In this document: positions 11,335 to 36,294 of the stretch, one piece after another | How positions within the stretch are numbered: the first letter of the stretch is position 1 | Layout of the letters: each line of letters starts with the position of its first letter | NCBI RefSeq assembly: GCF_009746565.1 | Contig: NZ_WRPN01000005.1 | Span: forward strand, 1-64,000 | Source: Mariniflexile maritimum | GTDB taxonomy: Bacteria > Bacteroidota > Bacteroidia > Flavobacteriales > Flavobacteriaceae | Direction of reading: 5' to 3' | DNA: 64,000 nt | Translations under genes and position numbers: made by a program | The notes under the pieces: model-generated | What the model saw: the letters and a program-made list of their open reading frames with translations, nothing else | Databases searched by the model: none | Told to the model about the DNA's origin: nothing

Positions 11335-11371
11335 CCCCCAGTTCAAAGAACGTTGCAGCCCCCTAAGATTG
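11335..11371 (+). promoter_or_regulatory. C-rich bipartite repeat, candidate HTCS site, susC 1
   Basis: CCCCC at 11335-11339 and again at 11359-11363, 24 bp apart, with GAACG between them and TAAGATTG after the second. The second block starts 72 bp before the susC 1 ATG. The same arrangement (C-run, about 8-9 bases, GAAnG-like core, C-run) occurs before 20405, 28416 and 33477, and CCCCTAAGATTG recurs exactly before susC 2. Two tandem half-sites about two helical turns apart are usual for AraC-type regulators. Confidence 0.6.
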
Positions 11372-11430
11372 TAGTTGATATTTTTAATTTTACATAAAAT
11401 TTATTACTGTAATCAAACTAAACAACAAAA

Positions 11431-14400
11431 ATGAAAAAACATTTTAAACTATTGTTAACCCAACCAAAAAACAAAAAGCTCATTGTGTTCATGCTTTTGT
11501 GTATGGCATTAAGCAGTGTGCGAACTCATGCGCAAGTAAAAACCGTTACAGGCGTTATTACAGATGAAGTAGGGCTTCCATTACCGGGCGCCAACGTGCT
11601 TGAAAAAGGTACCCAAAATGGTGCTATAACCGATTTCGATGGTAGATATTCAATAAAAGCGATGCCAAATTCAAAATTGGTCATTAGCTATATCGGGTAC
11701 AAAACAATTGAAGTAGCTGTGGGCGGTCAAACTACCATAAACGCAAGTTTAGCGCCCGACATGCAACAACTCGATGATGTTGTGGTTGTTGGCTACGGAA
11801 CTGTGCGCAAAAAAGACTTAACAGGTTCGGTGGCATCGGTAAAAATGGAGAAATTAATTGAGGCTCCCGTAGCGAACTTCGACCAAGCTTTGGCAGGTCG
11901 TGTGGCAGGTGTTCAAGTAAATTCTACCAGCGGCGAACCTGGTTCGGGCATGGAAATTACCATACGTGGTGGCAATACCGTAAATGGCGATAATTCACCA
12001 CTATATGTATTGGACGGATTTATTATTGAAAATTTTAACCCCGGTATTTTAAACCCTTCGGACATTCAAAGCATCGATATATTAAAAGATGCTTCGGCAA
12101 CGGCCATTTATGGTGCACGCGGTGCCAACGGTGTGGTGCTTATCACAACCAAACAAGCAAAGTCTGGAAAAACAAAAATTTCTTATGAAACCCGCTTGGA
12201 TGTTAAGAACATTGCTAAAAAACTAGACGTACTTAGTGCATACGAGTTTGTGAAGCTCGCCAACGAAATCAACCCAACAAATACGGTTTCTAAATTTTTT
12301 GTAGATGATAACGGTGCTGTTGTAGGCGGTGTTGAAGATTATAGAAATTCGCCATCGGTTAATTGGCAGGACGATGCTTTTAGAGTGGCATTTTCAAAAT
12401 CACATACCGTTAAAATAGCAAGTGGCAACGATGTAACAAAGTTTGATGCTTCGGTTAACGTGGTCAATGATGAAGGCACCTTACTAAGATCTGATTATAA
12501 TAAGATTAACGGCAGGTTGAATTTAAGGCACAAAATTAATGATAAATTCGATTTAACACTTGCTACCATATATGCCAATACCGAGCTTAACGGACTTGAT
12601 ACCGAAGGAACCGCAACGTATTCGTTTATGCGCAACGTGATTACTTACACCCCAGTAGTGAATAAATTTAAGGACTATGGCGATGCCAACCCTTTGTATG
12701 GAATCAATGTGGCTGAGTTTGACATCAATAATATTTTTAACTGGCATCCCATCGTATCGTTGAACAACGAATATAGAAAAAGGGAAACCAACCAGTTTAT
12801 ATCCAACCTCTCGTTGCGTTATAAAATTTTACCAAGCTTGGTGCTTGAAGTAAAGGGCGCATACAACGGAGATTTTAGGCAAACGGGCATCTTCAACAAC
12901 AGCAATACCGTTTACGGTCGTTTAATCAATCCTATAAACGGTATTAATGGTACCATGGATCACCAAAATTATAAAACCCTTTCCAATACCAATACCTTAA
13001 CCTATACCAAAGGGTTTGGTAAACACGATTTAAGTGTTTTGGTAGGAACCTCATTCAATTCCCGAAAAATAACCAGAACCTTTATTAGGTCGATACAGAT
13101 TCCGCAATATGCTGAAAGCCAAGGCATCAATTCTTTGGATGAAGGCACGCAATCTAGTACAGATGATATAATAGGAAGTGATACTTCCAGAATCCAATCG
13201 CTTTTAGGAAGATTGAACTATTCATATAACGATCGCTATTTATTAACAGCCTCGATACGAAGGGATGGATCTTCAAAATTTGGGCCCGGGCATAACATTG
13301 GGTATTTCCCTTCTTTAGCGGTTTCATGGAAAGCAGAAGAGGAACAATTTATAAAAAACCTAGACTTTATTTCACAATTGAAATTTAAGGCAGGGTATGG
13401 TAAAACAGGAAACGATAGAATTCCCGGAGATGCAAGGTTTGACCTGTTCAATTCAAATTTGGCCTCTTATTTTATAAATGGTATTGAAATATTGGGACAA
13501 CGCCCATCTTCAAGCGGCGCCAATCCAGAAGTAGAATGGGAAACCACTTCGCAATACAATGCAGGTGTCGATTTGGGGTTGTTTAAAGGCCGCATTTCGT
13601 TAGCTGCCGAGGTTTATGAAAAAACAACCAACGATTTGCTTATCAATGCAGATACGCCCCCATCTCTCGGTGTTAGTTCCGTATGGAAAAATAGCGGTTC
13701 GGTAAGGAATAGAGGACTGGAATTCTCGTTAAATACCATCAATGTAAATTCAAAAAACTTTAAATGGACCACCGATTTTAATATTTCATTCAACAAAAAC
13801 GAAATCATGTCGCTTCCAGATGGTAAGCCTATTTATGGCAACCCAAGATATTACCAACGCTATTCTTCCAATCAATTTATTGTTGAAGAGGGCAAACCTT
13901 TGGGCAATATGTTCGGGTATGTTTCTGATGGCGTGTATCAACCAGACGATTTTGTTAATTACGATCCAAATTCATCAACTCACACTTTAAAACCGGGACA
14001 ACCTAGTTATAAATTGGCACACCAACCAGGAGACGAAAAATATAAGGATTTAACAGGTGATGGAAAAATTACGGCTAATGATAAAACCATTATTGGTAAC
14101 GGGCTCGCTAAACATTTTGGTGGCTTAGGAAACACGTTTTCTTATAAAGGTTTCCAATTAAGCGCCTTTTTTCAATGGTCGTACGGAAACGATATTATGA
14201 ATGCCAATAGATTGGTTTTTGAAGAATTGGCCTATGAAGGTCAAAACCAATACGCTACTGTAACCAACAGATGGACGCCAGATAACCAAAACACTACCAT
14301 GTTTAGGGCTAAAGGAAGAGGTTTTGAAGATTTATCATCAAGGGTTATTGAAGATGGTTCTTATATCCGTTTAAAAACCGTAAACCTGTCTTACGATTTT

Positions 14401-14598
14401 GCAAAGGATGTGGTTAAAAAATTAAATTTAAGCACCTTGTCTTTATACATATCGGCACAAAACTTAATTACTTGGACCAATTACAGTGGTTTCGACCCAG
14501 ATGTTTCGGTAAATAGTTCGGCAATTATGCCGGGGGTAGATTATTCTTCCTACCCAATCAACAAAACCTTTAGTCTTGGTTTAAACGTATCATTTTAA
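11431..14598 (+). CDS. SusC-like TonB-dependent receptor (pair 1)
   Basis: A 1055-residue outer-membrane transporter for imported oligosaccharides. It has an N-terminal signal peptide (about 1-35), a carboxypeptidase-D-like regulatory domain (GVITDEVGLPLPGANVLEKG, about 39-110), the region before the plug with VVVVGYGTVRKKDLTGS, a plug domain ending near ARGANGVVLITTK, and a long beta-barrel finishing in an aromatic residue (LGLNVSF). The length is normal for SusC. The SusD-like gene follows 107 bp downstream, and the two should make one complex with SusD as lid. It lies directly downstream of the HTCS gene with the C-rich repeat in its promoter. The adjacent chondroitinase-like lyase suggests that the cargo is sulfated GAG oligosaccharides. 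Substrate is inference from context. Confidence 0.95.
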   Translation: MKKHFKLLLTQPKNKKLIVFMLLCMALSSVRTHAQVKTVTGVITDEVGLPLPGANVLEKGTQNGAITDFDGRYSIKAMPNSKLVISYIGYKTIEVAVGGQTTINASLAPDMQQLDDVVVVGYGTVRKKDLTGSVASVKMEKLIEAPVANFDQALAGRVAGVQVNSTSGEPGSGMEITIRGGNTVNGDNSPLYVLDGFIIENFNPGILNPSDIQSIDILKDASATAIYGARGANGVVLITTKQAKSGKTKISYETRLDVKNIAKKLDVLSAYEFVKLANEINPTNTVSKFFVDDNGAVVGGVEDYRNSPSVNWQDDAFRVAFSKSHTVKIASGNDVTKFDASVNVVNDEGTLLRSDYNKINGRLNLRHKINDKFDLTLATIYANTELNGLDTEGTATYSFMRNVITYTPVVNKFKDYGDANPLYGINVAEFDINNIFNWHPIVSLNNEYRKRETNQFISNLSLRYKILPSLVLEVKGAYNGDFRQTGIFNNSNTVYGRLINPINGINGTMDHQNYKTLSNTNTLTYTKGFGKHDLSVLVGTSFNSRKITRTFIRSIQIPQYAESQGINSLDEGTQSSTDDIIGSDTSRIQSLLGRLNYSYNDRYLLTASIRRDGSSKFGPGHNIGYFPSLAVSWKAEEEQFIKNLDFISQLKFKAGYGKTGNDRIPGDARFDLFNSNLASYFINGIEILGQRPSSSGANPEVEWETTSQYNAGVDLGLFKGRISLAAEVYEKTTNDLLINADTPPSLGVSSVWKNSGSVRNRGLEFSLNTINVNSKNFKWTTDFNISFNKNEIMSLPDGKPIYGNPRYYQRYSSNQFIVEEGKPLGNMFGYVSDGVYQPDDFVNYDPNSSTHTLKPGQPSYKLAHQPGDEKYKDLTGDGKITANDKTIIGNGLAKHFGGLGNTFSYKGFQLSAFFQWSYGNDIMNANRLVFEELAYEGQNQYATVTNRWTPDNQNTTMFRAKGRGFEDLSSRVIEDGSYIRLKTVNLSYDFAKDVVKKLNLSTLSLYISAQNLITWTNYSGFDPDVSVNSSAIMPGVDYSSYPINKTFSLGLNVSF

Positions 14599-14705
14599 AA
14601 ACAAATAACACAGAAACAAGAAACTTCCATAACCAAATTTCAATACTTAAGTAATGATTATGTGGAAGAACCTTGTGAACGTTAAAAAACAAATAATATA
14701 AACAC

Positions 14706-16295
14706 ATGAAAACGAAATTTTTAATAATAACAATCGTTGGTTTGTTGTTCGTTCAGAGTTGCGACAACAAACTGGACATATTGCCAGAAGACGGTATTGG
14801 CTCGTCAACACTATATCAAAATGAAGCAGGTGCACTTGCGGGCCTTATGGGTGTTTACAGTCGCGTGGTGTGGGCTTATCGCGAGTCGGTTATTAATGCC
14901 ATGTACCCTTCGGCAGCAACCGATGAAGCGTTTGAAAACCGAACAGGTTTAAGGTTTTATGTTGAAAATAATGGCACCAGTAGCAGCCAGGATATTCTAG
15001 CTTCGTGGGCCATATTATACGAAGGGGTAAATGCAGCAAACATTATGTTGGTTGAGGTTGCCAATTCTACGGGGCTCACAGAGGCCCAAAAAGTGGCATT
15101 TAGTGCAGAAGCTCGTTTTATAAGAGCCTTTCTGTACCTTGATTTACAGAAGAATTTTGGAGGTATTGATGGTATTCCTTTACCCACCGAAGCAACATTA
15201 AAGCAATTATTGCCCCGTACCAAAGGCGTGGAAGTATATAACCAAATTTTTGCCGATTTAGAATATGCCGAACAAAATTTAAAAAGCATCCAAGAGGTTA
15301 CCCCGGGTAGAGCAAGTAAAGAAGCGGCACAAGGGCTATTGGCAAGAGCGTGTTTGTACAGGGCAGGAAAACCATTTACCAACGATGGCGATTACTACAC
15401 AAAAGCAAGAGATTGGGCTAAAAAAATAACCGATAACCCATATTTTAAATTAAACCCGAGTTATGAAGATGTTTTTAACAAACTCGCAAAAGAACAATAC
15501 GACACCAAGGAAGTACTCTTTCAAATAGGCTTTTTCTTTGGTAATCAAGACCAAAACCAATCTAGTAAAATTGGTTCTACAATAGGTCTGCGAGTAGATG
15601 ATGGTTCATGCCATAATAGAGGCTATGGTTTGTTTTCGGCTACCATTACCTTAACTAATGCTTATAGAAGCGACCCAACCGATGAGCGAGGTTTATGGAA
15701 CGTATCGCCATTTTATATTGCCAATAACAATAACTGCGGCTTTAAAACCGAAGTCAATCAGTTTAAATATCCAGCATCAAAATACCGTCGTTTGTTAGAA
15801 AGTGGGGGTACGGGTAGTTACGGCCCACACCATTGGCCCGTGTTGCGTTTTTCAGATGTCTTGTTGATGTATGCTGAAGCTGAAAACCAATTAACCCCCG
15901 GGTCGTCCTTGGCATTGGCAGCTGTTAACAAAGTACGCAACCGAGCAAAGGCAACCCCGTTTTTAACCATAAACGAAGCCAAAATTCAAGAAGAAAGACG
16001 ATTGGAATTGTGTTTTGAAGGATTGCGCCGATACGATTTGGTACGTTGGGGCATCTTCCAGCAAAAAGTAACCGAAACGGTAAACGCAATGCGCGCTGCC
16101 GATGGTTCGACAAATACCGATTGGCCACTTTACGGTACAGGATCGCCTGCTACAAGAAAAAACACCTTAACCGGTTTGGATTATTATTTTGAAGGTTACC
16201 TAAATTATGATGATAGCAAACACCAATTGCTCCCCATACCAGAGCAAGAAATGGGCGCTAATGATTTGATACAAAACCAAAACCCTAATTGGTAG
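14706..16295 (+). CDS. SusD/RagB-like surface glycan-binding lipoprotein (pair 1)
   Basis: A 529-residue lipoprotein with lipobox LLFVQSC (Cys19), followed by the SusD-typical start CDNKLDILPEDGIGSSTLY. Tetratricopeptide-like helices form the N-terminal half (for example KVAFSAEARFIRAFLYLDLQ), and the C-terminal RagB/SusD signature includes VLRFSDVLLMYAEAENQL and ERRLELCFEGLRRYDLVRWG. It is the surface lid of the SusC partner encoded just upstream and binds the glycan before import. A rho-independent terminator follows, separating susCD from the lyase gene, so levels of transporter and enzyme can differ. Assignment to the family is firm. The exact ligand is inferred from the adjacent lyase. 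Confidence 0.95.
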   Translation: MKTKFLIITIVGLLFVQSCDNKLDILPEDGIGSSTLYQNEAGALAGLMGVYSRVVWAYRESVINAMYPSAATDEAFENRTGLRFYVENNGTSSSQDILASWAILYEGVNAANIMLVEVANSTGLTEAQKVAFSAEARFIRAFLYLDLQKNFGGIDGIPLPTEATLKQLLPRTKGVEVYNQIFADLEYAEQNLKSIQEVTPGRASKEAAQGLLARACLYRAGKPFTNDGDYYTKARDWAKKITDNPYFKLNPSYEDVFNKLAKEQYDTKEVLFQIGFFFGNQDQNQSSKIGSTIGLRVDDGSCHNRGYGLFSATITLTNAYRSDPTDERGLWNVSPFYIANNNNCGFKTEVNQFKYPASKYRRLLESGGTGSYGPHHWPVLRFSDVLLMYAEAENQLTPGSSLALAAVNKVRNRAKATPFLTINEAKIQEERRLELCFEGLRRYDLVRWGIFQQKVTETVNAMRAADGSTNTDWPLYGTGSPATRKNTLTGLDYYFEGYLNYDDSKHQLLPIPEQEMGANDLIQNQNPNW

Positions 16296-16314
16296 AATTT
16301 TATTGAAAAAAAAT

Positions 16315-16365
16315 AAAATCCCCAAGCCGTTACTGAAAATATGTATTGGTATTGGGGATTTTTTT
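16315..16365 (+). terminator. Rho-independent terminator/attenuator between susD 1 and the PL8 gene
   Basis: An 11-bp stem, AAAATCCCCAA (16315-16325) with TTGGGGATTTT (16352-16362), a 26-base loop and a continuing T-run. It lies 20 bp after susD and ends 35 bp before the lyase ATG, so it may stop susCD transcription or allow partial read-through. Confidence 0.8.
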
Positions 16366-16399
16366 GATAAAATAAAAACACAATTTTAAAACGTTAATT

Positions 16400-19300
16400 A
16401 TGAAAATAATGTTACATAATTTTTTAAAAACGCTTACCAGACACATTATCTTGGTATTGTTTATTGGGTTGTGTTTTAATCTATCTGCCCAAGACGAATC
16501 GTTTGAAACGGCATTGCCACCAGCCCATTGGGCAACTACCAATGGCACACTGTCCACGTCTGCCGACCATTATAAATTGGGAACCCAATCGTTAAAGTGG
16601 GATTGGTCCAGTAACGCCGTAATTACCGTTAGTAACTTACAGAGCCAAGGCTTAGTGCCATCGCAAGTAACCAACTATAATTATAACATGTTTAGGATGT
16701 GGGTTTATAACACCGCTGCCATAAGTCCCCAATCCTTAAAAGTAGAGTTTTATGATGGCTCAGGAACTTTACAATACTTTTACAATGTGCAGTTAAATTT
16801 TACGGGATGGCGCGCAGCTTCGGCCAGTTATCTGTATGAGATGTCCGGAACTAAAAATACCACCAACATTACAACCATGAAAATTAAGGCACCTTCTTCT
16901 GGAAATGGAACGTTCTTTTTTGATTTCATCGATTATACCATGGCCAGGAATGATTCGAGAAGCGCCGACTACCAGCTCCCGTTTATCACCTTGGATAACG
17001 ATGAACATTGGGGCGACGTCATGTATTTTCAATCCTTGCCAAAAACCGTTCCGTTGGTAACGCCCACAGCACAAGAGCTATCCGATGTAGCAGCCATCAA
17101 ACAAGCCTATGATAACGCAATTATAGGAAGTGCGCCCAGTGCCAGTGCGGTTTCCAATGCTATAACAAAATATAACGCACTAAATATTTCCTATGTAGGG
17201 GGGCTTGTAAAAGGCAATCCCATTTATGGAAAAGACTATCCAAATGCCCAAAATGTTCAAGCGGTAGAAGATTATTTGCTAACCTTCGCCAGAGATTATA
17301 AATTTACTTCAAGCACCACCAGTAAAAACTATTTCATCAATACCGTTAGGTACTTGCTCGATCAGGGTTATGCTGATGGAAGTGCCATGGAAACCATCCA
17401 TCATATAGGGTATTCTTTTAGAAACATCCCATCTGCCATCCATTTGATGAAAACCGAATTGGAAGCTGAAGGGTTATGGGTTGAGGCCCAAAAAATGGTT
17501 GAATGGTACACGGCACTCGATGGTATTTGGGAACCTACCGCCTCTAGCAGCAATATGGACGATGCCAATACACGGGCATTATACAGATTGGGTGCCTGTT
17601 TGTACAAATCAACCGATGCCGAAAAAGTGCAATATTTAAAAGGCTACAAACAGTATGTAGAAACTTTTTTTACATTGGTCCCTAAAGAAGGGCAAGGCAT
17701 GAAAATTGACTTTACCGGGTTTCACCACAATACCTATTATCCGGGGTATGCGTTTCCGGGATATAATAATTTGGCCGAAACGGTTAAGTACCTATCCGAA
17801 GGGCAATTTGCCGTTTCAACAGTTAAAAGAGATGTTTTTAAAAAATCAGTATTACTGGCAAGAGTTGTGGGTGCGAGTGGCGATATTCCCAACGCTTTAT
17901 CGGGCAGAAACCCTTTTGCTGCCGTACCTATTAAAAACGCATTGAAGAATTTAGGACTTGCAAATCCTGTGGATACCGATTTGGTTAAAGCATACAACTA
18001 TGTTTATGGTGCCGATTCGCAAACGGTTTCCTATGGAAATGAAACCTCACCAAATGGCTTTTGGCAAGTCAATTTTGCCAATTTGGGAGTTTACCGACAA
18101 GATAATTGGGTGGCCGACATCAAAGGGTTCAATAAGTATTTTTATGGTTCTGAGATTTATGCAACCGAAAACAGATACGGTAGGTACCAAAGCTATGGTG
18201 CTATTGAAGTTTTGTACAAAGGCGGTTATGGCAATTCCAGATTAAATATTAATGGTTGGGACTGGAATAAAACGCCCGGAGCTACCACCAAACAATTATC
18301 ATGGAACGACTTAAAGGCAGCGACCAGCAGACAGGACGAACTAACCGATTCCAATTTTGCGGCAAGTTTGCGTTTCGGTACAAAAAATAACTATTATATA
18401 GACGAGAAAATAGAAGGCACTTTCGGTGTTTTTGGGATGGATTTTGCACAGAAAAAGAACTCCCCAACGCACGATACCAGTTTCAAATTTAAAAAATCGG
18501 TATTCTGTTTTGATGGAAAACTGATTTGTTTAGGAAGCAATATCCAAAGTGCCACGGGCTTGATAACCACTAACTTATTTCAAAATTATTTAACCAGTAC
18601 GTCGTTGCCAACTACCGAAAACAATGTAGCTGTTACTGCGTTTCCGTATAACAACACACTAAGTGGCGTTTCCAACAATTGGTTGCTGGATGCTGCAGGT
18701 ACCGGTTATTTTGTGAAAAATGGCAATTCCATAGTGGTTGATAGAAAAAATCAAGATTCCCCTTCAGAAACTGGAAATGGCACGCTAACCAACGGCAACT
18801 TTGCATCGGCATACATCAGCCATGGTACAGCACCAAGTAACGATGGTTACGAATATGTAATCATTCCACAAACCACCGCAACCGATATGGTGGCCTTTAG
18901 TGCGAATATGGATACTAACGCGACTGCTTTTTATGAAGTCATTCAAAAAAACCAGAACGCTCACATTGTAAAATATAACGATATGTATGGCTTTGTGCTT
19001 TTTAGTGCAGGAAGCTATGGCACAACCACACCACTTAAAAACAATGACAAACCGTGTTTGGTTATGGCGCAACAAACTGCGGGTAATTTAAACCTATCGC
19101 TGGTGAGCCCCGATTTAAAATTTGGTGGCAGCAATGGTAACAGTCAAGTGGTTGCTATCGATATGACCCTAAATGGCGAATGGAACGTAGCCGCAAGTAG
19201 TGGTGGCAATGTAACCGTTACCAAAAATGCAGGGGAAACCATATTGACCATTGAAGCAAAAAACGGATTGCCAGTAGATATTTCGTTAACTTCTGGATTT

Positions 19301-20227: not shown

Positions 20228-20252
20228 TTTTAACCCATCTCAAATTATAAAT

Positions 20253-20297
20253 CTTAAAGCTGTTTTTGTTATAGAAACCGGCTTTAAGGTTTTTTTA
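20253..20297 (+). terminator. Rho-independent terminator after PL8 gene 1
   Basis: An 8-bp perfect stem, CTTAAAGC (20253-20260) with GCTTTAAG (20281-20288), followed by GTTTTTTTATTT. It separates the lyase gene from the small secreted-module gene, which has its own C-rich promoter motif. Confidence 0.8.
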
Positions 20298-20310
20298 TTT
20301 AGAACAATAT

Positions 20311-20348
20311 CACCGCTTTTTTGAACGCCTACCCCCGTATGGTTATTG
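20311..20348 (+). promoter_or_regulatory. C-rich bipartite repeat, candidate HTCS site, 320-residue protein gene
   Basis: CACCGC (20311-20316), GAACGCCTA (20323-20331) and CCCCC (20332-20336), then GTATGGTTATTG. GAACGCCTAC recurs exactly before the GH88 gene (33382-33391). The final C-run lies 73 bp before the ATG, matching the 72 bp seen at susC 1. The spacing between C-runs is shorter here (about 19-20 bp). Confidence 0.5.
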
Positions 20349-20404
20349 TAGCGTATTATTAATTTTATCTACGAATTATACTAACTTTTTAAATTTTAAT
20401 TATT

Positions 20405-21367: not shown

Positions 21368-21390
21368 AAATAACAACCTATTTTTCTTAA

Positions 21391-21431: not shown

Positions 21432-21465
21432 GCTCATAAGTGTAACCTGATTAACCATTTTAATC

Positions 21466-21537: not shown

Positions 21538-21539
21538 AT

Positions 21540-23447: not shown

Positions 23448-23486
23448 AATATTGTTTGAACCTTGATTTTCGTAAGATTTTAACGA

Positions 23487-23921: not shown

Positions 23922-26839
23922 GGTTCAGACTTTATCAATGCCGCTAATTGCGTTTTATTGATACGTTCTTTAAATGAAATTTTAATGTTTTGGTCTTTGT
24001 AGTGTTCGCCTAATGCCTCAAAATACTTTTTGGCAAAATCAATCTTGCCTTTTTCATCTACTGGAATTGCGGTTGACGATTTGTAACCTTTGGCTTCCAC
24101 TACAAGAAATATTTTGTTGCCTTCGGTGCTTTTGATAGCATAGCAAAAATCGGGGTTGTAATCGCCCAATGGTGTTTTAATTTTCAGGCGTGGCAGTTTA
24201 CCGAAAATTTCAATACTGTCAATGTCGGGGTCTTGCTCCACAATTTCCAATTCAAAATCACTGTCATATTCAATTACTTCTTCAAATACCCATTTAGTTT
24301 TCAAAGAAAAATCGCCTGCAATTTCCTTTTGGAATTTGCCAATGCTTCCTGTATCTAAGTATGTTTTTCCTTTTTCGGTTTTGAATACGTTTGGCAAGCC
24401 TGTTCCGTTAATTCCGTCATACTTAATGTTTGCTTTAAGCATAGCAATTAAGTTCTTGTTGATTATTTCGGAAATTTCTCTTTGTGCCTGTTCAGGATTG
24501 TTGCAGAGCATTTTGGTTTTGAAATCATCACTCAACGCATTGAAAACCTTAACCACAAATGAAATAGGGGTTTTGGTGTTGTTGGACAAAGTGCGAACCA
24601 ATTCCAAATAATCAACTTTGCTTTTATATGAAACGGTGTCGGTTAGCTTTTCTGAAATTGCTCCCTGTTCGCCAATCTTGTTCACGTTTAATTCTGCACG
24701 AATGGTCTGCAATAGAATTTTCTCAATATTTACGGCTTCTATTTGCGTTTTTATGTTTTGTATCAGTTGGCTTTCTTGTTCTTCGGTCAAAGTATCCAAA
24801 ACATAAAAAGCATTTTTGTTGATTGCGTTCCATAGATTTTGAAACTCTTGCAAATGGGTTCCTTTTATAAAAACTTTCTTTTTCTTTGTAGGTTTATTAC
24901 CGTCTTGTACATATGTTTTTGTATCAGTTGCAAACAAGCTTTCTATGGCTTTTACTTGTTCTTCGGGCAAATTTTGAACTTTGAGAATGGCAGAGAAGTC
25001 AGGTGATTTTTCGTAAACATCAATGCCATCTACCGTAGCCTTAAAAACAATTATTTCTTTGTTATCAAGTGTTTTGAAAATATTTCGAACAGTTACATCA
25101 TCAAACCCCGATTTTTCTTTGAGTATTTTTTTAAGTTCTTGTTCCGTAAAGGTTTCAGAAATTAAGAATGAGTTGTTTAAAATCTCGTTTTGAATGGCTT
25201 CTACAAAGCCTTGTTCTTTGCTGGAAACAACCACGTCAAGGTTATTAATTTTCCAAAAAGCTTCTTGGTCGTAATTCAAATTTTTTAGTGTATATCGTTG
25301 CAAGTTTTGGTTTACGCAAATGCGCAAACCACGCCCAATTTGTTGCAGTTTTGATATGTCGCTTCCTTGATTGGATAGTTTGCAAATAGTAAATACATTC
25401 GGATTGTCCCAACCTTCTTGCAAAGCCCAAATGGAGAAAATGAAACGTGAAGGACTTTCAAATGAGAGTAGTTTCTTTTTGTCTCTTAAAATTTCATCAA
25501 CGCCTGCTTTTACTTTTTCGTCTGCATTCCCTTTATCGCCCGAAAAATAACCCTTGTGAACCTGCAAGGTGTTGTTGCTGTCAAAATCGTTTTGCAAAAA
25601 TTTATAATAATCGTTTGTTTGGTCAAGTTTGCTTACAACTTCGTTATATTGCTTTTTGTATTCTTCTTCAAATATGTTTTTGACTTTCGGATTTTCGCCA
25701 CGAAACAAACTGGTGTCAGCTTCCATAAAAAACAAAGTGAGTGCTTTTACGCCTTGCTCAAACAATGTTTTTTCTTTTTCAAAATGTATTTTGATGGTTT
25801 CTTTAATCATTGTCCGAAATGATTCGTCTGACAGAGAATAATCAACCTTTTCAATGGTGTCATCCGCTAAAACAATGGTGTCTTTGTTTATTTTCTTAAT
25901 GTTTTTACCGTTGAAAACAGCTCCAATACCTAATTCTCGTCTTGCAATAATTCCGTTTGTTAATGTGCTTACGTGAGCTATATTTTTAGAGCCAACTTTT
26001 TCTATGCCAATGAGTGTATCCGTATTTTCAATGACATCCTGCGTATAAACTACAATTTTCTTAACTAAGTTTTGGCGGAAAGAAGAAATGCTGTCTAAAA
26101 CGTAAGCCACATTTGAAAGAACTAAACTGTCTTTCTTTTTTGGAAATGTTGCTCCAAAACGCAAAAAGTAATTTTCAAATCCCTCAAAATAAGTTTTAAA
26201 GGCATTGCCTTCAAAACGGTGCGGTTCGTCCATGATCACAATCGGACGTAAGCGTTTCAAACATTCCAAATACGATTTTGGCGGTTCTTGATTAACTACA
26301 AATAATTCAGGTGCGTTCATCTCGCGTTCTAACGGACGGTTCAAAATATTGTCCTTACTATTAAATGAGCTTGGTGTCATAACCAAAACCGACAAATGGG
26401 AAGTGCCGATAAATTGTTTTACCGCAGAAAGATTGCCACCTTCGTAAACAAAAGTTTCAATTTCCTTTTCTTTTTCGTTGGCGTAAAAGCTCTTAAAGTA
26501 ATTTTTGGTGTCTTCTAAGTTTGTTTTTGTACCCTCACGAATAGGGACAGTAGGTATAAGAACAATAAATTTTTTGTAGCCGAAGTTTTTACTGAGTTCA
26601 AAAATGGTTTTGATAAACGTAAAGGTTTTTCCCGTTCCCGTTTCCATCATGATATCAATGTTATTGTTGTTTTGAACTGGGAATTTGTATTTGTTATTTT
26701 TTTGGTGTGCAATAAGCACATCACAAAAATTTTGTTTTTGGCGAAGGCTTTCAAAAAGATTGATAATGTTATTTACGCAGTCCTCTTGGTATGCTTGGAT
26801 TTCATATTGAAACTGTTTTGTTTCTGTTTTTGTAGTCAT
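23918..26839 (-). CDS. res: Type III restriction enzyme Res subunit (helicase-nuclease)
   Basis: A 973-residue protein with an SF2 ATPase. Walker A is METGTGKT (65-72), followed by KKFIVLIPTVPIREG. The DExx box is IMDEPHRF (about 205). Later motifs include WALQEGWDNPNVF and KLQQIGRGLRICVN (motif VI). The C-terminal endonuclease (about 880-920) has GDYNPDFCYAI followed by FLVVEAKG, a PD...ExK site. With Mod it should form a type III complex that hydrolyses ATP to communicate between sites and cuts unmodified DNA. It is intact and is the first gene of a res, GxxExxY, mod operon read leftwards. The domain order and length fit the family. Confidence 0.9.
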   Translation of the reverse strand: MTTKTETKQFQYEIQAYQEDCVNNIINLFESLRQKQNFCDVLIAHQKNNKYKFPVQNNNNIDIMMETGTGKTFTFIKTIFELSKNFGYKKFIVLIPTVPIREGTKTNLEDTKNYFKSFYANEKEKEIETFVYEGGNLSAVKQFIGTSHLSVLVMTPSSFNSKDNILNRPLEREMNAPELFVVNQEPPKSYLECLKRLRPIVIMDEPHRFEGNAFKTYFEGFENYFLRFGATFPKKKDSLVLSNVAYVLDSISSFRQNLVKKIVVYTQDVIENTDTLIGIEKVGSKNIAHVSTLTNGIIARRELGIGAVFNGKNIKKINKDTIVLADDTIEKVDYSLSDESFRTMIKETIKIHFEKEKTLFEQGVKALTLFFMEADTSLFRGENPKVKNIFEEEYKKQYNEVVSKLDQTNDYYKFLQNDFDSNNTLQVHKGYFSGDKGNADEKVKAGVDEILRDKKKLLSFESPSRFIFSIWALQEGWDNPNVFTICKLSNQGSDISKLQQIGRGLRICVNQNLQRYTLKNLNYDQEAFWKINNLDVVVSSKEQGFVEAIQNEILNNSFLISETFTEQELKKILKEKSGFDDVTVRNIFKTLDNKEIIVFKATVDGIDVYEKSPDFSAILKVQNLPEEQVKAIESLFATDTKTYVQDGNKPTKKKKVFIKGTHLQEFQNLWNAINKNAFYVLDTLTEEQESQLIQNIKTQIEAVNIEKILLQTIRAELNVNKIGEQGAISEKLTDTVSYKSKVDYLELVRTLSNNTKTPISFVVKVFNALSDDFKTKMLCNNPEQAQREISEIINKNLIAMLKANIKYDGINGTGLPNVFKTEKGKTYLDTGSIGKFQKEIAGDFSLKTKWVFEEVIEYDSDFELEIVEQDPDIDSIEIFGKLPRLKIKTPLGDYNPDFCYAIKSTEGNKIFLVVEAKGYKSSTAIPVDEKGKIDFAKKYFEALGEHYKDQNIKISFKERINKTQLAALIKSEP

Positions 26840-27005
26840 TTAATATCTCAAAAATTTGAATCGCTAAAATACCAATTTATCTTCGTTAATCTTTTTTTTT
26901 AATTCAATTCTTGTCAACCTGTAAAATAGGTAGCTTCGTGGTTTTAGATGGCTTCCCTTGCGCCTCACTCCCTATTACATATTGCGTAGCCAAAACCTAG
27001 TACCC

Positions 27006-27059
27006 AAAACCAACACCCAAAAAACAGATTGCTTTGGTCATGTTTACAGCGCAATGACG
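27006..27059. repeat. Dispersed intergenic repeat, right flank of the R-M operon
   Basis: AAAACCAACACCC, an A-run, CAGATTGCTTTGG and a tail with GCGCAATGACG. Same orientation and nearly the same wording as 21466-21537. Together the pair frames the R-M operon. Confidence 0.6.
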
Positions 27060-27210
27060 TTTCAACCCAAAACCCAAAACCAAACACCAAAAAATACGAT
27101 AAAACGTATAATTTTTAACATAAAAAAAGCGTAAATCACGGGGCTATTGTGTAAGTTTACACCAATTAATAACGTTTTAATACATTTTAAATGCGTTTTA
27201 ATTACGATTT

Positions 27211-27270
27211 GAGTGGGTGAGACCGCTCAAGACCTTATTAAATTTAGCTCAAAAAACGGGGTTCTAGCTG
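27211..27270. repeat. Degenerate second copy of the HU 3'-flanking sequence
   Basis: This stretch shares GAGTGG...CTCAAGACCTTATTAAA...ACGGGGTTCTAGCT with 27468-27524, immediately downstream of the HU-like gene, at a period of about 256 bp and in the same orientation. It reads as a duplicated gene end whose coding part has been lost, or as an RNA element repeated twice. Confidence 0.6.
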
Positions 27271-27289
27271 TTGTTTTTGAGCTTTTTTT
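27246..27289 (+). terminator. Orphan plus-strand rho-independent terminator
   Basis: A perfect 10-bp stem, AGCTCAAAAA (27246-27255) with TTTTTGAGCT (27274-27283), followed by TTTTTTA. The T-run is on the plus strand only, but no plus-strand gene lies upstream: both neighbours, res and the HU-like gene, are on the minus strand. It may end a small RNA starting somewhere in 26900-27240, or be left over from a rearrangement. Confidence 0.65.
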
Positions 27290-27453
27290 ATGCAAAACTG
27301 TTTCTAAAAAGTTGTAAAAGTTGTAAAAAACGTTGAATAAGGCGTGTTAAAACACCCTCGGCATCAGGTTTTCATGTCATCAGCATCAAAGAAATGGTTC
27401 ATCAGCATCAAACAATTGCTTCGTCCGCATGAAATTTATTCATTTTAGGGCAT

Positions 27454-27487
27454 AAAAAAAAGGCCCTGAGTGGTGAGAACACTCAAG
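27454..27487 (-). terminator. Rho-independent terminator of the HU-like gene
   Basis: On the minus strand an 8-bp stem, CTTGAGTG with CACTCAGG (one G-T pair), is followed by GCC and eight T residues. It begins 30 bp after the HU-like stop codon. It overlaps the 27468-27524 repeat, whose second copy has lost the T-run. Confidence 0.8.
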
Positions 27488-27524
27488 ACCTTATTAAACC
27501 TAGTAAATAACGGGGTTCTAGCTC
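27468..27524. repeat. HU 3'-flanking repeat, copy adjacent to the gene
   Basis: Contains CTCAAGACCTTATTAAA and ACGGGGTTCTAGCT, shared with 27211-27270. This copy includes the working terminator of the HU-like gene and overlaps its last codons. Confidence 0.6.
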
Positions 27525-27901
27525 GCTTTTCTAAAAATTAATTCGTTTAGCAAATTGCGTAAACGTTTACCAGGCCTAAACAAAATACGGGTTTTGGTAA
27601 TCGCGTTGGCATCAACAGCCAGTTCGGTATCTCTACCTTCTGAGCTTAAGCCCACTTGAAAATTACCCAAACGCCCTAATTTAACAATGCGCCCTTGTTT
27701 TAAGGCATCAATAATGTTGCGCTCCAACGAGAGCAGTACCGCATAACAATCGGACTCGGTTACGGTACATTGATACGAAATTTGCTCTGCGAGCGTATCC
27801 ATATCTACTTCACCATCTGCAATGGCAGCGGCATAGTACTTCTCAGGTAGGTTAACATCCTGAGGATTCTTTCTGGCTTGCGCCTTAAATTTAATAGCCA
27901 T
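27518..27901 (-). CDS. HU-like DNA-binding protein (Bacteroidota type)
   Basis: A 127-residue protein resembling the Bacteroidota-specific HU-related family of putative histone-like proteins: MAIKFKAQARKNPQD at the N-terminus, the central YAVLLSLERNIIDALKQGRIVKLGRLGNFQVGLSSEG, and a C-terminal ITKTRILFRPGKRLRNLL. The RIVKLGRLGNFQV stretch matches the HU core, and the positively charged arm fits DNA binding. Such proteins bend and compact DNA; many strains have several copies near mobile or variable loci. It is a single gene with its own terminator. It lies between the R-M operon and susC 2 and is not an obvious part of the GAG pathway. Confidence 0.85.
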   Translation of the reverse strand: MAIKFKAQARKNPQDVNLPEKYYAAAIADGEVDMDTLAEQISYQCTVTESDCYAVLLSLERNIIDALKQGRIVKLGRLGNFQVGLSSEGRDTELAVDANAITKTRILFRPGKRLRNLLNELIFRKAS

Positions 27902-28415
27902 TGGCTTAAAAAATTAAAAAATTAATATAATAATTTTGTCTTAGTATGCGCGTATAATGCATCTAACTGACCTTACTAAGTTTGTAAATTTTTTATACAT
28001 ATTAAAACAAACTTATAAACAAATCTTGCTAGTTTTTAACACTGTTTTAGTTAATAAAATTTGATAAAATTGTGCTTAATAATAGTGTTATTTTCAAATA
28101 ATTTCAAACTATTATTGCAGTTATTAAATTGTTGATAACGTACTATTTTCAAATATGGCGGTGAATTTATGGTAAAATAAACAGCTATAAATATACAGAC
28201 CTCTAAATTCTTTTCTTAATCTAACTATTTATAAGTACCGTTTGAGGAGAAGTTCTATTTAAAAAATGAACCCTACAAAAAAAAAGGTTTATTAGTAAAA
28301 AACACCCCTAAGATTGGATAGAATACTCCCCCTCACCAATAACTGATTTAACATAATATTGGCGTTTAAATTATATTCTATTTTTCAACTAAAACTTTAA
28401 CTAAATCAAGAACAA
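27902..28415. other. Divergent promoter region between the HU-like gene and susC 2
   Basis: A 514-bp AT-rich region without a supported gene. The right part holds the C-rich bipartite repeat (28304-28337) about 80-110 bp before the susC 2 start. The left part should hold the HU-like promoter; no box was convincing. No hairpin or riboswitch-like structure was seen. Confidence 0.5.
28304..28337 (+). promoter_or_regulatory. C-rich bipartite repeat, candidate HTCS site, susC 2
   Basis: ACCCCTAAGATTG (28304-28316), then ATAGAATACT and CCCCC (28328-28332) followed by TCACC. The C-runs are 23 bp apart. CCCCTAAGATTG is identical to part of the motif before susC 1 (11360-11371). The second C-run lies 88 bp before the ATG. 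Confidence 0.6.
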
Positions 28416-31337
28416 ATGGTAAAAAAATTAAATTTTTTGTCGCGTAAATTGAAAACTGCTGTGAGGTTTTTAATTTTACTGTTAGCTATGTGCCTTAGTA
28501 CAGGGTCTCTAAATGCACAATCATCAATTACAGTAAATGGAATTGTCACAGATGCCGAAGGCATAGGATTACCAGGTGCTACTATTTTGGAAAAGGGAAC
28601 ATCTAACGGATCTACAACAGATTTTGATGGTAATTTTAATATGTCTGTTGCAGGAAAATCTACTTTGGTAGTATCTTATGTAGGTTATAAGACCCAAGAA
28701 GTTGCAGTTAACAACAGAACTTCTATTGCTATTAAATTAGTAGAAGATGCTGCAGCCTTGGATGAAGTTGTGGTTGTGGGTTATGGCGCAAGGCGTAAAA
28801 GCGACCTTACAGGTTCTATTTCAAGCGTAAGTGCTAAAGATTTTGAAAATCAACCATTGGTAAGAGCTGAAGATGCGTTGCAATCGCGTACTGCGGGTGT
28901 AAATGTATCTAAAAATTCGGGAGCACCAGGGGGTGATATTAAAATCCGTATCCGTGGTTCTAATTCCATTACAGGAAACAACCAACCTTTAGTCGTTATT
29001 GATGGTATTATTGGTGGCGATCTTGCAAGTTTAAACACAAACGACATTCAAAGTATCGATGTGTTAAAGGATGCTTCTGCGACTGCTATTTATGGCTCAA
29101 GAGGATCTAATGGCGTTATCATGGTAACAACTAAAAGGGGAAAGTCTGGAATGCCCCAAGTAAATGTTAATTATTTTTTATCGTCGTCCGTAGTTCCTAA
29201 AAAATATGATCTATTATCTCCATCAGAATTTGTAGCCTTTGCTGGAGGTGCGGCCACCATAGTGAATGGCGGTGCCGATTATCAAGATGAATATTTTAGA
29301 CCTGCCATAACCAATAATGTACAAGTTACAGCAAGTGGTAAAGAGGGGCGCTTAAATTATTTTATTTCTGGAAATATGGTAAACCAAGAAGGTATTATTA
29401 TTAACACCGATTACCAACGTTATTCCTTGCGTAGTAATTTAAGTGTGGATATAACCGATAAGTTTACTGTGGGTTTAAATATTTATGGATCTAAAGAAGA
29501 TTCTCACAACTTAATTGCTGGTGGAACGCGAGGCGCCCAGGATGTTCGTGGTGGAGTACAAGCTATTTTAGGATGGAATCCAGCGGTAAACTATATAAAC
29601 CCTGACGGTACCTATAATTTACAAAATAGTTATGGTTCTATTTTAGTGAATCCAATTGCGGTTCAAAAAGAAAGAGATGGCAATGATGTTACTAACAATT
29701 TGAATACAAATTTAACTTTGGGGTATAATTTTAATGATAATTTTAATTTTACCTTGTTAGCAGGGTCCTCTCAGAAAATCCTTAATAGCGAAGTGTTTAA
29801 CGGTATTCCTGATGGTTCTATAATATTGCCGGCATCCGCTAATTTCGGCTCTCGAAGAACGGAAGATTACCAATTAAGTAATATTTTAACTTGGAATAAG
29901 GACTTTGGAACTACGAATATAAAATTAACTGGAATTTACGAATTGCAATCCTCCACTTTCAAATCTGCGGGTTTTAACTCTACAAATTATATTTTTTCAG
30001 GATTGAAAGATGCGTTTTATTTAGCTGAATTGGGTTCAAATCAAACCGTAAACGCTAATAAAAATAAAAGCGCTATCGATTCTTATGTTGTGAGAGCAGA
30101 AGTTAATTTTGCAGATAATTTATTTGCAACAGCAACCATGCGTGTTGATGAATCGTCAAGATTTCGAAAAGGAAACAGAACGGGTTATTTCCCATCAGTA
30201 TCTGCTGGTTACAACATTGGGAATTTGTTTTTAAAAGACGATTCGTTTTTAAACAGCCTAAAGTTTAGGGCAGGTTATGGGGAAACAGGAAATCAAAATA
30301 TTGCACCATATTCAACCTACCAAGAACTAGAAACAGGTATGAATTTTCCATTTAACGGAAGTGCGCTCAATATAGGTTTGGGCTTTGGTGGTCTAGTTGA
30401 TGAAAATTTGACTTGGGAAACTACGAAGCAATTTAATGCTGGTTTAGATTTTAGAATGGCTAATGGTCGCATAAATTTAAGCTTGGATTGGTATAAGAAA
30501 AACACGGTCGATTTATTGTTAGAAAAACCTGTTTTAGCATCCAATGGCGGTGGTACTATTTTAACAAACATTGGAGAAGTTGAAAATACGGGTGTAGATG
30601 TTACTTTATCAGCAACGGTAATTAATTCAGAAAACTTTAAATGGAACTCTGACCTAACCATGTCTTTTGTTAAAAATAACGTTGTTGATCTTGGAGGTCC
30701 CGATCAAATAGTAACACCAGCACCTTTTAATCCAGCTGGAGGATCATCCAACTGGTTTTTACTTAAAGTAGGAGAGCCATTAGGTAATTTTTACGGGTAT
30801 CAATATTTAGGGGCCGATGCCAATGGTGCTGCACAATACAGTACCGACCAAGGTATTATAGGTAATGGTACACCAAACTTTACTTGGGGTTTAAACAATA
30901 CATTAAGTTATAAAAACTGGGATTTAAACCTTTTGTTTAGAGGTGTTCATGGTTATGATGTACTTAATTCTACTTTGGGAATTATTAGATTGGCAACTGG
31001 TAACATTACAGTTCCTACAAGTGCAGAAGTATTGGACCCAGCTAGTCCAAAAACAGGAAATAATAATTTGAATTCCACCAGAAATATTGAAGATGGAAGT
31101 TTTATAAGATTAAGCAATCTATCATTAGGATATACACTTCCTAGTGTTAAAGGTTTTGCAAATTCGGTAAAAATATATGTAAGTGGACAAAACCTGTTCA
31201 CTATTACCGACTATAAAGGGTATGATCCCGAAGTTTCTTCAGTAGGCGTAACGAGTTCTGATGTCACAGCTTCATTTGATGCAGGTGCATTACCAAACCC
31301 AAGAACAGTCACTTTTGGAGTTAACATAGGTTTTTAA
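28416..31337 (+). CDS. SusC-like TonB-dependent receptor (pair 2)
   Basis: A 973-residue outer-membrane transporter. It has a long signal peptide (about 1-35, ending near GSLNAQ), the carboxypeptidase-D-like regulatory domain (GIVTDAEGIGLPGATILEKG), VVVVGYGARRKSDLTGS before the plug, the plug end SRGSNGVIMVTTK, and a barrel ending in VTFGVNIGF. It is paired with the SusD-like gene 19 bp downstream. It is about 80 residues shorter than the first SusC, and the two barrels differ clearly, so they are likely to import different oligosaccharides, for example differently sulfated or sized GAG fragments. The C-rich motif in its promoter suggests the same HTCS control as pair 1. The substrate is inferred from the neighbouring GH88, lyase and sulfatase genes. 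Confidence 0.95.
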   Translation: MVKKLNFLSRKLKTAVRFLILLLAMCLSTGSLNAQSSITVNGIVTDAEGIGLPGATILEKGTSNGSTTDFDGNFNMSVAGKSTLVVSYVGYKTQEVAVNNRTSIAIKLVEDAAALDEVVVVGYGARRKSDLTGSISSVSAKDFENQPLVRAEDALQSRTAGVNVSKNSGAPGGDIKIRIRGSNSITGNNQPLVVIDGIIGGDLASLNTNDIQSIDVLKDASATAIYGSRGSNGVIMVTTKRGKSGMPQVNVNYFLSSSVVPKKYDLLSPSEFVAFAGGAATIVNGGADYQDEYFRPAITNNVQVTASGKEGRLNYFISGNMVNQEGIIINTDYQRYSLRSNLSVDITDKFTVGLNIYGSKEDSHNLIAGGTRGAQDVRGGVQAILGWNPAVNYINPDGTYNLQNSYGSILVNPIAVQKERDGNDVTNNLNTNLTLGYNFNDNFNFTLLAGSSQKILNSEVFNGIPDGSIILPASANFGSRRTEDYQLSNILTWNKDFGTTNIKLTGIYELQSSTFKSAGFNSTNYIFSGLKDAFYLAELGSNQTVNANKNKSAIDSYVVRAEVNFADNLFATATMRVDESSRFRKGNRTGYFPSVSAGYNIGNLFLKDDSFLNSLKFRAGYGETGNQNIAPYSTYQELETGMNFPFNGSALNIGLGFGGLVDENLTWETTKQFNAGLDFRMANGRINLSLDWYKKNTVDLLLEKPVLASNGGGTILTNIGEVENTGVDVTLSATVINSENFKWNSDLTMSFVKNNVVDLGGPDQIVTPAPFNPAGGSSNWFLLKVGEPLGNFYGYQYLGADANGAAQYSTDQGIIGNGTPNFTWGLNNTLSYKNWDLNLLFRGVHGYDVLNSTLGIIRLATGNITVPTSAEVLDPASPKTGNNNLNSTRNIEDGSFIRLSNLSLGYTLPSVKGFANSVKIYVSGQNLFTITDYKGYDPEVSSVGVTSSDVTASFDAGALPNPRTVTFGVNIGF

Positions 31338-31356
31338 TAAAAAAAAATAGATAAAG

Positions 31357-32898
31357 ATGATACGAAATATTTTAAAAATAAATTTTTGGACCAAACTAAG
31401 CATCATGGTACTTTCGGTAGTCATGATGACATCCTGTTCAAATCTTGATGAAAATCCAGGTGAAGTACAATTAGCACCAACGGCTCTAACTTCCGATGAT
31501 GCTTTAGAAGCTGTTTTAACAGGCATGTATAGAAATCTTATGGAAGGAGGCGCGCAATGGGCACAATTTCAACTAGCGGCTTTTGGAGGTGATGACCTTA
31601 CTTCACATAGTGGACTTAATAAAATTGCTTTTAGAGAATCTGATTGGAGACGACAAACTTCGGGTACACAAAATATACAAATGGCCTATAACACGTGTTA
31701 CAATGTTATAACGCTTGCCAATATAGCAATAGATGCTAAAGCTAATATTATTAGCACCGATCAGGCAAAAGTAGATCGACTTATTGGAGAGGCTTATTTT
31801 ATGCGTGCATTTTCTTATATGCATTTAACGAAAACGTATGGTAGAGTACCATTACAATTAGTTTCAAACTCAAATGAGTTACTGCCAAGAGCATCATTTC
31901 TTGATATTTACACTCAAATTGAGTCCGATTTAAAACAAGCAGAAACATTACTGCCTAACGTATTTCCTGGTATTCCAGTAGTAGGCGCAAGACCTAATAA
32001 AGGAACCGCAAAAGCTTTTATGTCTAGATTGTATTTAAGTTGGGGAGGGTACCCAATTAAGGATGCTTCTAAATATGCGTTAGCGGCTAGTAAAGCCAAA
32101 GAGGTTATAGATAATGAAAGTACTTACGGATTTGGATTGGTTAGTAATTTTAGAGCGTTATGGACAGAGAAAAATCGTTTTAATCAGAATGAAAGTGTAT
32201 TTACTTTGGTAAGTTGTACACCTTGTGGCGTGCGTAATAGAACCATGGGTCGTTTAGGAATGCCTGCTGAAGCTGGAGGATGGAACGAGATTTTCAGTGA
32301 AATAACATTCTTTAAGGATATGCAGTTAGATGCCACTGCGAACGGCACAGAAAAGCGATTTAACGATACCTACGTTCTAGAACAAATACCAAGAAAACCA
32401 AGTTTTCCTATTGGAGCAAATTGGGAAACATGGTCTGATCCACACCCTTTATTTCGTAAAGTCTTGGGAGGTGATTTAACGGAGCCAGGATCAAACAACA
32501 CGATAGCCGATTTTAATATATATTTTATGCGTTATGCAGAAGTATTGCTAAATTATGCTGAAGCTACAGGGCGATCTGGAGGTAATGATCCAGCCGCTTG
32601 GAATGCACTAAACAGAGTAAGAAACCGTGCGGGTGCTACCACAACTTTAACAGCTGCTAATGGCACGTTAACAGATTTGGCGTTTGCAGAAAGAAAATGG
32701 GAATTTGCAGGTGAATATTTAAGAATGCACGATTTGGTAAGAACTGAAACGCTTTCAGCTTCTTTCGCTCGTAGATCGCCCGTGGAGACTGTGGATATAA
32801 AAAATAATATTCTACCGATAACGAGTGGTGGAGAAGAATTTTATTTTTCGCCGCTACCTCAAGCTGAATTGGATATATTACCAAGTTTGGGTAATTAA
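31357..32898 (+). CDS. SusD/RagB-like surface glycan-binding lipoprotein (pair 2)
   Basis: A 513-residue lipoprotein with lipobox VVMMTSC (Cys27) and a SusD-type start, CSNLDENPGEVQLAPTALTS. SusD features include GEAYFMRAFSYMHLTKTYG in the helical half, and YFMRYAEVLLNYAEATG and FAERKWEFAGEYLRMHDLVR near the C-terminus, where the family signature sits. It should cap the SusC partner encoded 19 bp upstream. A strong terminator follows 27 bp after the stop codon, so susCD 2 is a two-gene unit distinct from the degradative gene series that starts at 33477. Confidence 0.95.
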   Translation: MIRNILKINFWTKLSIMVLSVVMMTSCSNLDENPGEVQLAPTALTSDDALEAVLTGMYRNLMEGGAQWAQFQLAAFGGDDLTSHSGLNKIAFRESDWRRQTSGTQNIQMAYNTCYNVITLANIAIDAKANIISTDQAKVDRLIGEAYFMRAFSYMHLTKTYGRVPLQLVSNSNELLPRASFLDIYTQIESDLKQAETLLPNVFPGIPVVGARPNKGTAKAFMSRLYLSWGGYPIKDASKYALAASKAKEVIDNESTYGFGLVSNFRALWTEKNRFNQNESVFTLVSCTPCGVRNRTMGRLGMPAEAGGWNEIFSEITFFKDMQLDATANGTEKRFNDTYVLEQIPRKPSFPIGANWETWSDPHPLFRKVLGGDLTEPGSNNTIADFNIYFMRYAEVLLNYAEATGRSGGNDPAAWNALNRVRNRAGATTTLTAANGTLTDLAFAERKWEFAGEYLRMHDLVRTETLSASFARRSPVETVDIKNNILPITSGGEEFYFSPLPQAELDILPSLGN

Positions 32899-32925
32899 TA
32901 TACCCGTTTACTTGCTAAATAAAAG

Positions 32926-32957
32926 CCGTCTCAAAAATTAGAATTGAGACGGTTTTC
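32926..32957 (+). terminator. Rho-independent terminator after susD 2
   Basis: A perfect 9-bp stem, CCGTCTCAA (32926-32934) with TTGAGACGG (32944-32952), a 9-base loop and TTTTC afterwards. It closes the susCD 2 unit. Confidence 0.85.
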
Positions 32958-33367
32958 TTATTTATAATTTTTTGTATTGTTAGGAAAAATATTAAAAAAA
33001 CCGCTATACTATTAATACAAAAAAAGTGGTTGTAGCTATTTGGTTATCGTATATTTTTGAAATTCAGCTTACTCAAAATTTCAAATTCCCAAAGTGAATT
33101 TAATAGCTTGAAAGTGGAGTTTTCAAATTTAAATTAGCTGAGAATTTTTAATACTAATATTAAAAAATTGAAACAACCTTTTTTAATTGAATACATTATG
33201 TTGATGCATATTAAAATCAAATGGAATATCAGATTATAATGGAAGTTACCATGGCAAATGAATTAGTTGTTAATACAACAAGTTGTGTTCTATAAGTCAT
33301 GGTTGAATTACTGAAAAACAATCAAATTAATATTTTATTAAGATAAAAAACCCACAATAGGTCAATT

Positions 33368-33397
33368 ACCCCCTTACCATAGAACGCCTACACCGCC
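33368..33397 (+). promoter_or_regulatory. C-rich bipartite repeat, candidate HTCS site, GH88 gene series
   Basis: ACCCCC (33368-33373), CATAGAACGCCTA (33378-33390) and CACCGCC (33391-33397). GAACGCCTAC is shared exactly with the motif before 20405, and ATAGAA with that before susC 2. The C-rich blocks are about 23 bp apart. The second lies 86 bp before the ATG, like the 88 bp at susC 2. Confidence 0.6.
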
Positions 33398-34757: not shown

Positions 34758-34763
34758 TTAGTT

Positions 34764-36278: not shown

Positions 36279-36294
36279 CATTTAATGCATTTTT

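Follow-up and report, generated by a model that had tools for sequence, protein, structure and literature searches.

Predicted tandem operators of HTCS regulators and the present locus

At araI1-I2, Escherichia coli AraC occupies tandem half-sites about two turns apart, with the proximal one at the -35 region. Hybrid two-component system (HTCS) regulators show the same tandem layout, but are instead membrane-bound, driven by phosphorylation and matched to the -7/-33 promoters of Bacteroidota. The predicted operators of 16 HTCSs are direct repeats with a mean distance of 21 bp, and the set includes HTCS_Hya (BT3334), which is assigned to chondroitin sulfate and hyaluronan (PMC3878776). The present analysis concerns positions 1 to 64,000 of contig NZ_WRPN01000005.1 of Mariniflexile maritimum (hereafter the window), a stretch of 64 kb in which domain searches identify a glycosaminoglycan polysaccharide-utilization locus. 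Four tandem sites in it, one before each of four genes or operons, are very probably operators of the HTCS encoded at 7039-11217, a reading that rests on sequence comparison.

The locus is headed by the HTCS gene, followed by susC1, susD1 and a PL8 lyase gene, and then by the gene of a 320-residue protein. Next come a restriction-modification (R-M) block and an HU-like gene, both encoded on the opposite strand, the susC2-susD2 pair, and a series of genes that begins with GH88 and ends with CBM9. As in the Bacteroides HTCS systems, direct repeats about two helical turns apart precede the operons of an HTCS locus, and the substrate class is the same; the present sites differ in belonging to Flavobacteriaceae (by the loci found), in the half-site GAACnGnTAnCCCC, and in a period that is mostly 22 bp against a mean of 21 bp, the letters of HTCS_Hya not being part of this comparison (PMC3878776). 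The B. thetaiotaomicron locus BT3324-BT3350 likewise holds an HTCS, SusCD, PL8, GH88 and sulfatases together (PMC9067506), whereas the window additionally has two susCD pairs, type IX secretion system (T9SS) proteins and the R-M block, and its ligand and substrate are predicted. The general system is known, but the sites themselves and their arrangement appear to be new descriptions.

A tandem half-site before four promoters

The motif was learned by two-block expectation-maximization from 25 upstream regions in the genomes of 10 relatives, with the window's own genome excluded. The result was a single half-site, GAACAGTTACCCCCCTT, used twice in tandem, with a weight of 0.71 on a period of 22 bp. 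Of 61 starts, a random one did best, with a log-likelihood of 275.4, and a consensus seed gave 273.3, as against 24-38 for ten first-order Markov control sets. The half-site of about 17 bp is repeated head-to-tail, with a period of 22 bp in the relatives and 21-24 bp in the window. No site was found in two of the 25 training regions (PL8a of G126 and, within 220 bp, susC2 of G120), and sites were weak in four (both F20 regions and the GH88 regions of G099 and G120).

In the window, GAACnGnTAnCCCC is directly repeated, and this unit is present four times on the + strand. The predicted susC1 operator (11326-11364) reads GAACAGATACCCCCAGT / GAACGTTGCAGCCCCCT with a period of 22 bp, that of the 320-residue gene (20302-20339) reads GAACAATATCACCGCTT / GAACGCCTACCCCCGTA with a period of 21 bp, and that of GH88 (33360-33398) reads GGTCAATTACCCCCTTA / GAACGCCTACACCGCCT, again with a period of 22 bp. 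The weakest, before susC2 (28293-28333), reads TAGTAAAAAACACCCCT / GATAGAATACTCCCCCT with a period of 24 bp (23 bp in the model without a -7 box). With these periods, the predicted sites have the form of direct-repeat HTCS operators.

These are the promoters at which an initial annotation had placed paired C-rich blocks, and the blocks are indeed there: pairs 18-26 bp apart occur in 4 of 26 upstream regions (a chosen set of 150 bp each, not all gene starts of the window), exactly the four named. The start codons also follow the second block at the distances stated (72, 73, 88 and 86 bp). The anatomy, in which C-blocks surrounded a GAAnG core, has to be redrawn, as that core is the start of the second repeat copy and the GAAC of the first copy had been overlooked. 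As for the exact words said to be shared, on the + strand of the window CCCCTAAGATTG occurs at 11360 (susC1) and 28305 (susC2) only, and GAACGCCTAC at 20323 and 33382 only; the coordinates given for the latter, 20405 and 33477, are those of start codons. Such words were rejected as proof of a regulon, being near chance on their own: among 2000 first-order Markov promoter quartets, some pair had a 12-mer in common in 8.1%, and a 12-mer was accompanied by a 10-mer in another pair in 4.2%.

Spacing to the -7 box

Downstream of each proximal half-site lies a -7-like box of sigma-A type on the + strand: TAATTTTAC for susC1 (11385-11393, 20 bp past the half-site), TAATTTTAT for the 320-residue gene (20360-20368, 20 bp), TAATATTGG for susC2 (28354-28362, 21 bp) and the imperfect TTGTTTTGT for GH88 (33418-33426, 19 bp), where the -7 term adds only 0.2 bits. 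In 32 of 34 sites (these four and 30 of relatives), the proximal half-site is followed at 19-21 bp by the start of the best TAnnTTTR-like 9-mer, the distance being exactly 20 bp in 24. Boxes scoring at least 5 accompany 30 of the 34, the window GH88 box falling below this value; 300 shuffles gave 14.9 such boxes on average and 23 at most. In flavobacteria, TAnnTTTG occupies -12 to -5 (PMC9723704), which places the distal half-site at about -71 to -55 and the proximal one at about -49 to -33. With the box 19-21 bp beyond it, the proximal copy covers the -33 region; a predicted proximal half-site over -35/-33 at a fixed distance from the core promoter is the arrangement of a class II activator site.

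The near-constant spacing between half-site and -7 box may be new. The passages of PMC3878776 that treat the HTCS repeats do not relate them to a -7 box, and predicted BT0366 sites are marked together with -7 boxes in a supplementary figure (PMC5061871). Among the matches listed in a literature search, the HTCS term and the -7 consensus never appeared in one paper and none dealt with such spacing, an absence that is not proof; the relevant portions of PMC12125979, PMC10994844, PMC11501099, PMC6874557 and PMC13027841 hold nothing on HTCS sites.

Scores in the window and the rest of the genome

Scanned over both strands of the window, the tandem model, built from relatives only, places the susC1 (32.2 bits), GH88 (22.9 bits) and 320-residue (21.8 bits) sites at ranks 1-3, above the maxima of twenty Markov windows (15.9 on average, 20.8 at most). 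In 397 kb from the rest of the genome, none of 793,360 positions reaches 21.8 bits (maximum 16.6), and 18 reach 11.6. A full-layout model, comprising both half-sites and the -7 box, was built from 36 sites of relatives, 8 of them adjoining a more distant HTCS group and none from the window's own genome, and was scanned over the window and the same 397 kb only. In the window, susC1 (41.1 bits), the 320-residue gene (28.6), GH88 (22.4) and susC2 (15.0) take ranks 1-4, and the fifth position scores 9.6; elsewhere 0, 0, 0 and 1 of 794,000 positions score as high as the four.

Two profiles, R1 (the 39-bp tandem) and R2 (68 positions, the tandem with the -7 box), were also run over the own genome. 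R2 ranks susC1 first (E 3.2e-8) and the 320-residue gene second (E 3.7e-6), with the next match at E 0.12, and R1 likewise ranks these two first. Within the window, the GH88 site is matched in part by R2, at 6.8 bits (E 0.71), as well as by R1, at 4.8 bits (E 5.2), and part of the susC2 region matches R2 (3.3 bits, E 9.1). Taken together, support from sequence is very strong for the predicted susC1 and 320-residue operators and strong for GH88 despite its poor -7 box. It is moderate for susC2, the least certain member.

Sites at the loci of relatives

The same arrangement recurs in relatives when their loci are scanned at a threshold of 14 bits. Where the HTCS is 56-71% identical to that of the window (nine loci), a site precedes susC1 in 9 of 9. 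At these loci, all eight fetched copies of the close GH88 have a site before them, that of G120 in an odd register, as do 5 of 5 copies of the downstream homologue of the 320-residue protein. Two further stretches similar to the 320-residue protein or to its PL8 domain, which lie upstream of an HTCS (L018:1065 and L138:6991), gave no site at 14 bits. The three kinds of promoter inside one genome are not orthologous to one another. A susC2 homologue of G120 is preceded by a strong site, at 341 bp from its ATG. The sites of the susC2 and susC1 homologues of G120 (L141:5689-5727 and 12844-12882) are near-identical including their flanks, as if copied.

The regulator and its specificity

The HTCS (7039-11217, + strand, 1392 aa) carries, by Pfam, a Reg_prop propeller, Y_Y_Y, HisKA, HATPase_c, a receiver and an AraC-type HTH_18 domain in one chain, as expected of an HTCS. 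Its best solved relatives are 4a2l (residues 32-805) and 12aw (residues 1135-1384). The receiver has the S/CHIP motif as SHIP at residue 1206, a motif associated with keeping the DNA-binding domain inhibited until phosphorylation (PMC11253607). The HTH of the near group is 64-84% identical to that of the window HTCS (7 compared), and that of two other HTCSs of the own genome 40-49%.

C-block tandems stand beside other HTCSs too, so that C-blocks alone do not define the regulon; whatever specificity exists is supplied by the GAAC part and position. Among the promoters listed beside other HTCS-like genes of the own genome, none has a C-rich site. One stretch of that genome (L175, contig C37) holds, before an open reading frame (ORF) at 11543 and near an HTCS fragment, a near-perfect tandem TTTTTTGTTnTTTGAC with a period of 20 bp, followed by TATATTTG; this is a different predicted operator of similar layout. 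In two other genomes (L203 in G184:C52 and L204 in G007:C12), the interval that separates an HTCS-like gene from the gene of a membrane protein with haem-type CxxCH motifs contains, as read by eye, CCCC tandems followed by TAnnTTTGG.

The association between R2 matches and HTCS homologues in 199 genomes, a set reconstructed from genome labels, was also considered. All eight R2-positive genomes carry listed relatives of the HTCS; because four of them had served for training, a fifth is that of the window, and the match in G184 and one in G007 lie by another kind of HTCS, the p-values are not relied on.

Alternative explanations

Several observations speak against a regulon of four promoters under this HTCS. 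Scored by the tandem model without the -7 box, the susC2 site reaches only 11.6 bits and rank 8, and the -7 box of GH88 is poor. Neither of these two sites appears among the own-genome matches of R1 or R2 (19 matches for R2), for which 150 of 1454 and 150 of 3069 first-look candidates, respectively, were scored, so that weaker members elsewhere are possible. The orthologous promoters of the relatives are related by descent, and the counts from them are not independent. The more distant HTCS group, too, has tandems with similar letters at several of its loci, and the pattern is not exclusive; the HTH identity of that group to the window HTCS (48-66%, 19 compared) overlaps the range of the near group. 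Further, an HTCS of another kind adjoins the R2 match of G184 and one of the two R2 matches of G007.

The low rank of the susC2 site is one reason to consider that only the susC1, 320-residue and GH88 sites belong to this HTCS, the C-blocks before susC2 being decayed or those of another regulator. Its half-sites lack GAAC and have a period of 23-24 bp, one position in the 397 kb outscores it, and at three loci of relatives (L164, L148 and L020) susC2/D2 homologues adjoin more distant HTCSs. However, it takes rank 4 in the window once the full model is applied, at the correct distance to the start codon and with a -7-like box, and the susC2 homologue of G120 has its strong site; a regulon of three is unlikely, though far from negligible. 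It is decidedly less probable that a different activator, either another HTCS or an AraC-type protein encoded elsewhere, uses the sites while the neighbouring HTCS does not bind them. The genome does encode other HTCS-like and AraC-like genes, and in other genomes C-block tandems lie beside other HTCSs, but in the relatives the sites accompany orthologues of this HTCS and the same genes, and 20 stretches of the own genome, five with other HTCS-like loci, contain no intergenic site of at least 12 bits lying 40-110 bp upstream of an ORF. That C-rich upstream regions resemble one another by chance or recent copying, with no regulatory meaning, would suit the common words, which alone arise in 4-8% of simulated quartets; the recovery of the sites by a model from other genomes, the constant -7 spacing and the background of 0, 0, 0 and 1 leave this explanation scarcely tenable.

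The four-promoter regulon of the neighbouring HTCS proposed in the initial annotation thus survives as the best reading, on the strength of the relatives and the genome background, with its anatomy redrawn and its susC2 member held with moderate confidence; the pairing of regulator and sites is one that we infer.

Proposed mechanism

In B. thetaiotaomicron, BT3334 governs the chondroitin locus, is constitutively expressed and senses unsaturated disaccharides, for which GH88 competes (PMC9067506). The propeller domain of the present HTCS would sense periplasmic unsaturated chondroitin disaccharides, upon which the receiver would be phosphorylated and the AraC-type domain freed. Two monomers, separated by about two turns, could then bind to the same face of the DNA, and the proximal monomer, over the -33 region, would recruit RNA polymerase by class II activation. 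Uptake (both susCD pairs), surface binding (the 320-residue protein) and breakdown (the GH88-sulfatase-PL8 operon) would in this way be switched on jointly. By analogy, feedback of GH88 on the ligand may be expected here too, since GH88 leads its operon under the same motif.

As had been claimed, window scans with the models from relatives find no comparable site before the HTCS gene or before the R-M, HU and amino-sugar genes. They find none before the LacI gene either. The lack of a site of its own before the HTCS gene fits the constitutive expression reported for the Bacteroides counterpart, and HTCS regulators are typically constitutive at low level (PMC6874557).

A wider promoter grammar

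The layout was also surveyed at 103 HTCS loci from which the chondroitin group had been removed (192 flanks, 333 strict TAnnTTTG boxes); these are mostly of Bacteroidota, with otherwise-labelled records (L038, L057 and L059) within the range, and for L021-L061 the HTCS was assigned to the longest ORF. Direct repeats that match in at least 12 of 17 letters and end 19-21 bp ahead of a box occur 11 times at periods of 21-22 bp, compared with 0-4 times for ten other pairs of periods; at 11 of 17 letters there are 20, compared with 2-7. Two duplicate pairs (L045/L056 and L233/L262) reduce these to about 10 and 18 distinct cases, the other periods not being de-duplicated. Mean autocorrelation is highest at a period of 21 bp (0.310, the next being 0.299; z 3.1), and a smaller set of 17 regions and 7 boxes also peaks at 21. 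Tallied by distance to the box, the repeats are most numerous at 20-21 bp (18 and 16), but each distance of 13-19 and 22-23 bp still has 9-14, a broad base that speaks against a sharp rule. The half-sites themselves vary widely across HTCS loci (TGCAACA, TTGTCC and others).

Whether Bacteroidota HTCS promoters follow one grammar, in which a tandem with a period of 21-22 bp has its proximal copy about 20 bp before TAnnTTTG in place of a -33 element and only the letters are regulator-specific, is evenly balanced on these counts. If true, the operators of many orphan HTCSs would be readable from sequence, and the rule of placement, a tandem half-site followed at about 20 bp by a -7 box, could help to pair target-less HTCSs with promoters. 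For a chondroitin regulator outside gut Bacteroides, the four sites provide a concrete candidate operator that can be tested.

Gene content of the locus

All four predicted transcription units lie on the + strand, their extents being inferred, for that of GH88 from strand and spacing. The susC1 operon (11431-20227) comprises susC1, susD1 and the gene of a PL8 lyase that has an 8jiy-like domain at its C-terminal end as well as a T9SS tail, and the susC2 operon (28416-32898) comprises susC2 and susD2. The GH88 operon (33477-50465) encodes GH88, four sulfatases, the second PL8 (chondroitin ABC lyase-like), DUF4955, a T9SS protein, DUF6250, a heparinase II/III-like protein and CBM9. Chondroitin ABC lyases are the best solved-structure matches for both PL8s, which are the only Pfam Lyase_8 matches in the whole genome. 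With a PL8 lyase, GH88, sulfatases and SusCD together with an HTCS, this looks like a chondroitin-sulfate locus, the substrate being suggested by the enzyme families.

The 320-residue protein (20405-21367, + strand) matches the solved chain 8jiy_A over residues 26-248, followed by a T9SS sorting tail, and is probably a secreted glycan-binding protein. The structure 8JIY is presumably that of a CBM100. CBM100 is a published family specific for chondroitin sulfate (PMC11943901, PMC11122601). The 8jiy-like domain is common to this protein and the tail of the first PL8 (16400-20227), of which residues 967-1198 also match 8jiy_A.

Inside the locus, the other strand carries at 21540-27901 an R-M set (N6_N4 methylase, PDDEXK and ResIII) and the HU-like gene; for these four proteins, no match is listed in 43 searched stretches of relatives. 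Three homologues of the 320-residue protein (L129, L132 and L139) are longer, at about 490 residues, with an additional stretch ahead of the T9SS tail.

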